A stretch of DNA of 54,051 nt, from assembly GCA_028867675.1 (NCBI GenBank), contig JAGWGA010000009.1, positions 1-54,051 of the forward strand, written 5' to 3'. The DNA comes from Nitrososphaerota archaeon (GTDB lineage Archaea > Thermoproteota > Nitrososphaeria > Nitrososphaerales > Nitrosopumilaceae). The translations under genes were made by a program, and so were the position numbers. Positions 3,417 to 5,414 of the stretch are shown here, piece after piece. Numbering within the stretch: the stretch's first letter is position 1; every line of letters starts with the position of its first letter. The notes beneath the pieces were generated by a model. The model was not told the DNA's origin, searched no databases, and was given only the letters and a program-made list of their open reading frames with translations.

Positions 3417-3435
3417 GCACATATAAGAGTAAAGA

Positions 3436-3504
3436 AAGGCTATGACATTAGCCTTGGAATAAACTCCTAAACTGCCCAAGAAAGGTGCTGATAATGTCTA
3501 CCTA
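3436..3504 (+). ncRNA. Fluoride riboswitch aptamer (crcB RNA motif)
   Basis: The core matches the fluoride riboswitch. A stem GGC...GCC (3438-3440 / 3451-3453) encloses TATGACATTA. Then come a small extra GGA/TCC hairpin, the conserved AAACTGCCC (3469-3477), and GCTGAT-AATG-TCTAC (3487-3501). In the known Thermotoga petrophila aptamer the paired segments are GGCC with GGCC; here CATT (3445-3448) pairs with AATG (3493-3496), so the pairing is kept while the bases differ. This covariation plus the downstream crcB gene makes the call strong. The known ligand is fluoride. Confidence 0.9.
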
Positions 3505-3526
3505 ATGGAAATTAAATAGGTAGACA
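3495..3526 (+). promoter_or_regulatory. Expression-platform hairpin of the fluoride riboswitch
   Basis: TGTCTACCTA (3495-3504) and TAGGTAGACA (3517-3526) form a perfect 10-base-pair inverted repeat with a 12-base loop, ending one base before the ATG at 3528. The left arm is also the 3' strand of the aptamer, so the two folds exclude each other. Inferred mechanism: without fluoride the hairpin hides the ribosome-binding region (AGGTAGA) next to the start codon; with fluoride the aptamer holds the left arm and the start site is freed. This would be a translational ON switch. Confidence 0.7.
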
Positions 3527-3527
3527 A

Positions 3528-4703
3528 ATGAACACAAAAAATAAAAAACAAAAATTGGGCTGGTACAAAAATCTAGTCTATTCAATAATACTTGTAGTCA
3601 TCATAATGACAGGACTCATAGTTCCTGTGAGTGCAGTAGAATTTGAGGCACAGCTTAGCACTACGTCTACCATGACAAAACCAACATTTCAATTCGTCAG
3701 GACATATGTGATTGATTATCCAAATGGTGGAGAGATAAAAAATCTATTAAATGGCAAAAATACTTCCATGACATTTCACCTAGACCCATCTGATCCGATA
3801 AAGCAATCACTTGTCAAAAATCTCAATTCTGAAATTATCGGGGATCTCAAGAGTGCTGCAAATATCACAGATGCAGACATTACATATTATGCAACACTGT
3901 ATACAACAGATACCGAAGCTCACATTGATTATAAAATAACGTTTATTCCAACTGTATCAAATTATGTGTTAAGGAAAGCAACTAGTGACAGTGCAGCCAT
4001 TCTTGATACCCAGTGGAGGGGGTTAACTATACAAAATCCAATACTTGTAAACACTTCAAGTTATGGGCAGTTTGACATCAATTCTCCAATTGATTTTGTA
4101 AAAAAACAATTCCCTGATCTTTACAGCAAGTTACAGGGAACAAATGCAGAGAATCTATTTGAAATTCCGTTAATGTCATCAAATGATCTTATGAGTGATC
4201 CAATATCAAAATGGCAACACCTGTTTGACCCTGCATATACACTTGTAGAAACAAATTCTCTTGGATATAGAGGGCAAAAAATAACCATCTCAACATATGC
4301 TACTGGTGAAAGCAACATAAGCGAGGGACTCATGTTACCTACTGTTAAAAATTCTGATTTGAAGGCAGACATGGATTATCCAGTAAGCTACACAGAACGA
4401 GCAGGTTCCGCCAGCATACAAATCGACGGTTATGTTGCAGTGGCAGACATAAATGGCATTGAATACTTTGGTTCCAGTCCTCAGACACCACAGAATAGTG
4501 GAATAAACTCGACAGGAAACTATTCTGCTCAGGTTATCTATTCTATGGCAGCATTTGCTGTTGTAATAGCTATAGGTATTTTCTGGTGGAGTAATAGAAT
4601 GACTAAAGCTGCAATCAAAAGAGGGGTAGACAACAGTCCGCCGCCATCATTCCAGTATGAAGCAAGAAAACACTGGGCAGATAGATTTGATGAGGAAAAA
4701 TGA
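3528..4703 (+). CDS. Membrane-anchored extracytoplasmic protein, fluoride operon
   Basis: A 391-residue protein, the first gene behind the fluoride riboswitch, overlapping crcB by four bases (ATGA). It has a basic N-terminus, a transmembrane or signal segment (about 16-36), an extracytoplasmic domain of about 300 residues rich in Thr, Ser, Asp and Asn with several N-x-S/T sites, a second transmembrane helix (about 334-354), and a cytoplasmic tail ending in charged residues. I recognise no family. Position and overlap imply it is made with CrcB in response to fluoride, but its role (sensor, channel partner, wall protein) is unknown. Confidence 0.8.
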   Translation: MNTKNKKQKLGWYKNLVYSIILVVIIMTGLIVPVSAVEFEAQLSTTSTMTKPTFQFVRTYVIDYPNGGEIKNLLNGKNTSMTFHLDPSDPIKQSLVKNLNSEIIGDLKSAANITDADITYYATLYTTDTEAHIDYKITFIPTVSNYVLRKATSDSAAILDTQWRGLTIQNPILVNTSSYGQFDINSPIDFVKKQFPDLYSKLQGTNAENLFEIPLMSSNDLMSDPISKWQHLFDPAYTLVETNSLGYRGQKITISTYATGESNISEGLMLPTVKNSDLKADMDYPVSYTERAGSASIQIDGYVAVADINGIEYFGSSPQTPQNSGINSTGNYSAQVIYSMAAFAVVIAIGIFWWSNRMTKAAIKRGVDNSPPPSFQYEARKHWADRFDEEK

Positions 4704-5098
4704 TCATACCTCCAAAGGGAATTGAAATTGCATTTCTTGCGGTAGGAGGACTTGGGGGAACATTTCTCAGATATGGAATTACAAAATCACCATTACTTCT
4801 TGGTACATTACCTGTAAATGTATTAATTGTAAATGTAATTGGAAGTTTCATACTAGGGGCATTTGCAATATTGTCGCAACAGTGGAATCTTGATCAAAAA
4901 TTTGCAATGTTGATTGCAATAGGTTTCTGTGGTGGACTAACTACAATGTCTTCTTTTGCAATGGATACGTCAAATTTGATTAATGACAGGCAATATTCTT
5001 TAATGACAATCAACATAATTACTAATGTTGGTCTATCGCTTGGTGCAATATTTGGTGGCAGAGCTTTGACAAGTGTAATACTTGGAGGATTAAAATAA
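4700..5098 (+). CDS. crcB: Fluoride channel CrcB/Fluc
   Basis: A 132-residue four-helix membrane protein with the Fluc signatures: Gly-Gly-Leu-Gly-Gly-Thr-Phe-Leu-Arg-Tyr near residues 13-22, Asn-Val-Ile-Gly-Ser-Phe around 50, and Gly-Phe-Cys-Gly-Gly-Leu-Thr-Thr-Met-Ser-Ser-Phe near 73-84. The family forms dual-topology dimers that let fluoride leave the cell. A single gene is present, so a homodimer is expected. It overlaps the upstream gene by ATGA and is followed after one base by the DUF190 gene, giving one operon behind the fluoride riboswitch. Confidence 0.95.
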   Translation: MIIPPKGIEIAFLAVGGLGGTFLRYGITKSPLLLGTLPVNVLIVNVIGSFILGAFAILSQQWNLDQKFAMLIAIGFCGGLTTMSSFAMDTSNLINDRQYSLMTINIITNVGLSLGAIFGGRALTSVILGGLK

Positions 5099-5099
5099 A

Positions 5100-5414
5100 A
5101 TGAGAACTGCAAAGATGTGGTCTCTTGTCATAAGAATCAAGAGAAATGACACTACAAGAGGAAAACGTGCTCACATTCTGATACTTGATATTTTAAAGAA
5201 GGGAAACATTACAGGTGCTACTGTATGGACTGGCGTTGATGGGTATGGAAAGCGTGGAAAATCTACTCTTCATTTAGAAGGAATTGCAGTAAACATGCCA
5301 CTTATTATCGAAGCAATTGATGAACTAGAAAAACTGGAAAAGATTCTGCCTGAGATCAAGGAAGTAGTTGATGATAACGGTCTGATTACGATGCAAGAAG
5401 TCGGCGTAATCTAA
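5100..5414 (+). CDS. DUF190 family protein
   Basis: A 104-residue soluble protein of the DUF190 (PII-like fold) family: Gly-Lys-Arg-Ala-His-Ile-Leu-Ile-Leu-Asp at about 21-30, then Gly-Asn-Ile-Thr-Gly-Ala-Thr-Val-Trp and a Gly-x-Gly-x-x-Gly-Lys loop. DUF190 genes are often found next to crcB, and the PII-like fold suggests a small-ligand sensor, possibly controlling the channel; that role is inference. It starts one base after the crcB stop, so it is the third gene of the riboswitch-controlled operon. Confidence 0.88.
   Translation: MRTAKMWSLVIRIKRNDTTRGKRAHILILDILKKGNITGATVWTGVDGYGKRGKSTLHLEGIAVNMPLIIEAIDELEKLEKILPEIKEVVDDNGLITMQEVGVI

Follow-up and report, generated by a model that had tools for sequence, protein, structure and literature searches.

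The riboswitch locus and its operon

The window, i.e. the whole stretch of 54,051 nucleotides that was analyzed, carries a fluoride riboswitch aptamer in the 5' UTR of a fluoride-resistance operon, ORF391-crcB-DUF190 (Table 1). The host genus is Nitrosotalea, as judged by its relatives, and close ORF391 relatives behind an equivalent switch are found in Candidatus Nitrosotalea. The Rfam covariance model matches with an E-value of 4e-7 over the whole window and 2.6e-9 in a local search. An earlier note on this DNA had called an aptamer at 3436-3504, which is the core of the match, and had named the crcB covariance model as the sequence-level check on its call; the model scores above its cut-off.

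Table 1. Features of the fluoride riboswitch locus in the window.
Feature	Positions	Strand	Details
TATA-box-like CTTAAAAA	3407..3414	+	about 30 nt 5' of P1
Fluoride riboswitch aptamer	3429..3507	+	RF01734 (Rfam), 38.3 bits, gathering cut-off 34
P1 stem-loop	3438..3453	+	GGCT 3438-3441 pairs AGCC 3450-3453; 8-nt loop ATGACATT
P3 pseudoknot, 5' strand ACATT	3445..3449	+	partner 3493-3497
P1.1, extra hairpin in J1/2	3454..3469	+	core GGA 3456-3458 / TCC 3465-3467; insertion in Rfam model
P2 stem-loop	3474..3488	+	GCCC..GGTGC, one U bulged or mismatched; mismatch marked in Rfam alignment
P3 pseudoknot, 3' strand AATGT	3493..3497	+	3495-3497 common to P3 and hairpin
Hairpin left arm TGTCTACCTA	3495..3504	+	holds conserved CTAC and linchpin T3499
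Anti-start right arm TAGGTAGACA	3517..3526	+	holds SD-like AGGT 3518-3521
ORF391, first gated gene	3528..4703	+	hydrophobic stretch near each end; A-rich first codons
crcB (fluoride exporter family)	4700..5098	+	PF02537, E 5e-22; start overlaps ORF391 stop (ATGA)
DUF190 gene	5100..5414	+	PF02641, E 1e-20; 1 nt after crcB

The aptamer keeps the conserved bases of the fluoride class together with P1 and P3. Among 58 relatives, P1 is paired in 100% of cases, with two-sided changes at two pairs, and P3 in 99.7%, with two-sided changes at four of its five pairs; the long-range pairing of CATT with AATG, noticed before along with its covariation, is contained in P3. The weakest helix is P2 (83.6% paired in relatives); one of its pairs is imperfect in the window. 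A3491 and T3499 flank the P3 3' strand at the correct spacing and are the linchpin by analogy, T3499 corresponding to U48 when spacing and neighbors are compared with the A40-U48 pair of B. cereus. Taken from its sequence, the RNA probably senses fluoride.

Between P1 and P2 lies a further helix, P1.1, which has no counterpart in the Rfam consensus and was overlooked at first reading. Out of 2346 column pairs, its pair insL5-insR2 covaries most strongly, and the helix is 96% paired in relatives, with CG, AU, UA and GC as pair types. The insert is long enough to form P1.1 in 87 of the 90 distinct ATG-loop sequences. P1.1 also occurs in a group of genomes of the phylum outside the class (f42), while it is absent from GTG-loop aptamers.

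Upstream, 66 out of 112 loci have a TATA-like hexamer between -45 and -28, counted from P1 (16 +/- 3.5 in shuffled sequence), mostly at -29 to -31. With such a box about 30 nt before P1 in the window, the transcript is expected to start near 3433-3437, so that the RNA would begin at the aptamer.

The first gene of the operon, ORF391, was assigned to no Pfam family in a Pfam search, its homologs were found only in Nitrosotalea-like archaea, and its AlphaFold model is unusable (mean pLDDT 34.7). A relative with 36% identity adjoins the RNase P RNA without a riboswitch (L115:2935-4215, L116), and the protein family is therefore not tied to fluoride.

The anti-start hairpin and its conservation

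The two hairpin arms form ten Watson-Crick pairs around a 12-nt loop, and the single base A3527 separates the right arm from the ATG at 3528-3530, exactly as the earlier note had described. The hairpin takes up 3495-3497, i.e. three of the five P3 pairs, as well as C3498-A3504 including linchpin T3499, and the aptamer and hairpin folds are consequently mutually exclusive. This exclusion, too, had been proposed before; it holds for the strands in the window and, with compensating changes, for the hairpin across the class. Shuffled sequence would yield about 0.5 perfect 10-bp hairpins beside an ATG per 54-kb strand. The plus strand of the window has just this one, so the case is carried by position and conservation and not by rarity alone. 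The loop region, 3505-3519, holds a mini-ORF (ATG GAA ATT AAA TAG) that is conserved in close relatives and in some of them, e.g. G249, extends to overlap the real start.

Searches with RF01734 gave matches in 86 of 400 genomes of the class, 44 of 250 of the family and 80 of 398 of the phylum. Out of 118 places from the class and family searches, 112 were parsed into aptamer parts, leaving out the weakest matches (G016:C1, G282, G355 and G037) and two unparsed ones (G016:C8 and G029:C2). In the 97 ATG-loop aptamers, the best complement to the P3-CTACC strand within 45 nt downstream had a mean energy of -13.4 kcal/mol, as against -6.1 in dinucleotide shuffles. A complementary arm was present in 84 of them at p<0.05 and in 72 at p<0.01, and in 81 of these 84 the aptamer's own arm fitted better than arms taken from sequences whose left core differs. 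The start codon lies 1-2 nt 3' of the arm in 42 loci, and in 13 the AT of the ATG is within it.

Covariation was scored for all 2346 column pairs of 90 distinct sequences, with average-product correction (APC). After P1.1, the hairpin pair T3497-A3524 ranks second and the P3 pair A3445-T3497 third, while the transitive pair A3445-A3524 ranks sixth. As covariation links the T3497 column to A3445 as well as to A3524, one nucleotide tracks two alternative partners. The summed APC-corrected covariation of the hairpin pairs was 167, compared to 42 +/- 19 (highest 88) for shuffled downstream DNA. Complementarity decided where the right arm was put, which favors pairing, but the shuffles went through the same placement as the real sequences. 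Pair counts on 58 thinned sequences showed 95.0% of cells paired for the aptamer and 97.2% for the hairpin (eight pairs), values that none of 500 shuffles reached; slid versions were 24-48% paired overall and 31-48% for the hairpin.

Two-sided changes were found at six of the eight hairpin pairs. The U/C state behind the top hairpin signal underwent only about two changes on a tree of 59 CrcB proteins and thus represents few events; the idea of many independent changes was rejected on this ground. Separate lineages, each contributing a single change, have their own two-sided versions: CTCCTACC/GGTAGGAG in G020, TGTCTACA/TGTAGACA in G048, TGTCTACTCA/TGAGTAGACA in G087, ATGTCTCCAG/CTGGAGACAT in G185 and TGCCTATCA/TGATAGGTA in G253.

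The P3-CTACC arm was found in none of the 15 GTG-loop aptamers. In 11 of these, GCGAGCGG(T) located 5' of the start codon instead pairs the J1/2-P2 strand (AACCGCTCGC; p about 0.005-0.015). Two groups of genomes in the phylum but outside the class were compared by means of single-nucleotide shuffles: f42 genomes have CCTATCTC/GAGATAGG immediately 5' of the ATG, and in f29 genomes the P2 strand is paired. That the strand differs while the exclusion persists is the best argument for selection on the exclusion itself.

The proposed switch and possible translational coupling

We consider the element very probably a fluoride riboswitch that turns translation on. Without fluoride, the 3' strand of P3 and the adjoining CUACCUA would be captured by the arm 5' of the AUG (10 bp), which would cover the SD-like AGGU and abut the AUG (OFF). 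In the presence of fluoride and Mg2+, the strand would instead stay in the aptamer, held by the pseudoknot and the A3491-U3499 linchpin; the arm would remain single-stranded and the ribosome could start at 3528 (ON). CrcB would then be made by way of its ATGA overlap with ORF391. What can be read from the sequence is the class of the aptamer, the two pairings with their mutual exclusion and conservation, and the order and overlap of the genes; from these we infer fluoride binding, the ON direction, ribosome occlusion and coupling.

The ON direction follows from the predicted state of the start region, which is covered with the strand free and open with the strand held: the predicted mean pairing of 3517-3530 is 0.72 with the aptamer strand free and 0.26 with it held in the aptamer, and among 84 relatives, 67 show a drop of more than 0.2 in the predicted start-region pairing. 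The hairpin, with a folding energy of -12.6 kcal/mol, looks far stronger than the five-pair P3, and the switch may therefore have to act kinetically. Shine-Dalgarno use was estimated on 117 genes from the window and related loci, 21 of which are preceded by SD 4-mers, compared to 8 at a control distance. Since such use is weak in these genomes, it is probably the start region that is occluded rather than the SD. An exact-pattern search did not find the 16S 3' end in this genome. The earlier note had spoken of a complete reading of a translational ON switch. Anatomy and predicted folding favor the ON direction, but "complete" is too strong, as the gated AUG belongs to a 391-aa membrane protein and regulation of the exporter would need translational coupling.

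Such coupling is suggested by stop-start overlaps, here ORF391-ATGA-crcB, which the first reading had missed. The first slot in the genus is occupied by ORF391 relatives, a plastocyanin-like protein (PF00127) or a short ORF alone, with mostly A-rich first codons. At 33 loci, the ORF that begins with the gated ATG has only 3-65 codons. In 29 of these its stop codon overlaps or directly adjoins the next gene's start, 15 of them with the exact ATGA-type offset; next-gene starts were here chosen nearest the stop, while those of CrcB were fixed by homology. The short ORF of G157 joins the N-terminus of ORF391 to its last codons, i.e. the overlap outlived the gene.

The hairpin might instead act on transcription, through termination or polymerase release. 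Archaeal terminators are U-tracts, and no T-run is found 3' of the hairpin in the window, where the ATG comes 2 nt later and is followed by A-rich codons, making termination unlikely; moreover, most relatives have the right arm directly next to the start codon, which termination would not require. Despite the precedent of B. cereus, where a corresponding strand invasion forms a terminator (PMC11077080), we regard control of transcription as quite unlikely. A functional aptamer could also be combined with a downstream arm that is a static start-site hairpin, or an initiation signal conserved in sequence, with no exchange of P3. GGTRGRC could indeed be kept as a ribosome signal, and the U/C-A/G covariation amounts to few events, but the arms vary by lineage together with the aptamer strand (CTACA/TGTAG, CTATC/GATAG, CTACTC/GAGTAG), GTG-loop aptamers employ a different strand altogether, and SD-like motifs of this kind are rare before other genes, which leaves a static arm very improbable. 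Finally, a degenerate or orphan aptamer that has lost fluoride sensing, as could be read from the P2 mismatch and a score just 4 bits above the cut-off, is hardly credible given the retained conserved bases, P1 and P3, the crcB operon downstream and the retention of RF01734 matches in 28 of about 37 genomes of the genus. In the remainder of the family, matches occur in 16 of about 213 genomes.

Copies in the genus and relation to known systems

Islands in two sister genomes harbor seven and eight fluoride riboswitches, respectively, namely L091-L092 (G087:C37, 54-74 kb) and L093-L094 (G185:C57, 26-48 kb). According to Pfam, their genes encode ORF391 or plastocyanin-like proteins, a complex-I/FHL-like operon, enolase, Usp, an AsnC-like protein and an MFS transporter, and not every gene has a switch directly upstream. 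Riboswitches also lie upstream of TFB genes (L092:5818-6960 and L091:9891-11541 in G087, L093:5047-6232 in G185), the TFB gene being directly 3' of a short leader ORF in two cases; the one in G185 was called from sequence, not by Pfam. TFB, a general transcription factor, may thus possibly be under an RNA sensor. Another arrangement is that of L107 (G331:C55:140243-140481), where two fluoride riboswitches are situated back to back on opposite strands, a layout that recurs in G557 and G572.

Tentatively, the Nitrosotalea switch could be a portable translation module, consisting of the aptamer, P1.1, the anti-start arm, the AUG and a few A-rich codons, which gates an overlapping first ORF so that coupling puts different genes under fluoride control, and which has been copied into TFB-containing islands. 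If so, the TFB-linked copies would let fluoride set the transcription program via an RNA sensor.

One mechanism can be read here across a whole class of ammonia-oxidizing archaea, in which either of two strands brings about the exclusion, so that translational switching in archaea can be put to a direct test. Nitrosotalea is a genus of acid soils, a setting in which fluoride enters cells as HF, and the switch therefore makes physiological sense. Furthermore, the element could become a small gene-control tool for archaea with few Shine-Dalgarno sites.

The fluoride riboswitch class, or crcB motif, occurs in both bacteria and archaea (PMC2864571), and translational control and an archaeal example are likewise already known (PMC8241225, PMC11077080). 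In the open-licence literature we found no paper on thaumarchaeal fluoride riboswitches, and as far as the literature searched shows, what is new is the class-wide evidence for the switching strands, the use of two alternative strands, P1.1 and the presence of coupled first ORFs. The window shares with RF01734 the helices P1 and P2, the P3 pseudoknot, the conserved AUG loop, AAC(C/U)G, GAU, CUAC and a downstream crcB, but differs from the consensus in its covarying P1.1 and in having an anti-start arm as expression platform. In B. cereus crcB, breakage of the A40-U48 linchpin lets the expression platform invade the 3' strand of P3 (PMC11077080); the invading strand there builds a terminator, whereas the invading arm in the window lies at the start codon. 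The closest archaeal parallel is the Thermococcus kodakarensis switch, which is fluoride-responsive and presumably translational (Speed et al. 2018, as related in PMC8241225 and PMC11077080) and is, according to PMC8241225, the sole natural riboswitch of archaea to have been demonstrated experimentally. The present one shares the archaeal setting and the translational reading, predicted here from sequence, but T. kodakarensis belongs to another phylum than the host of the window. The suggested riboswitch interplay with a translated short upstream ORF, lastly, resembles the M. tuberculosis B12 riboswitches, which are coupled to uORF translation as outlined in PMC11260477; that case is bacterial and has another ligand, while ours consists of the overlap pattern only, yet across many loci.
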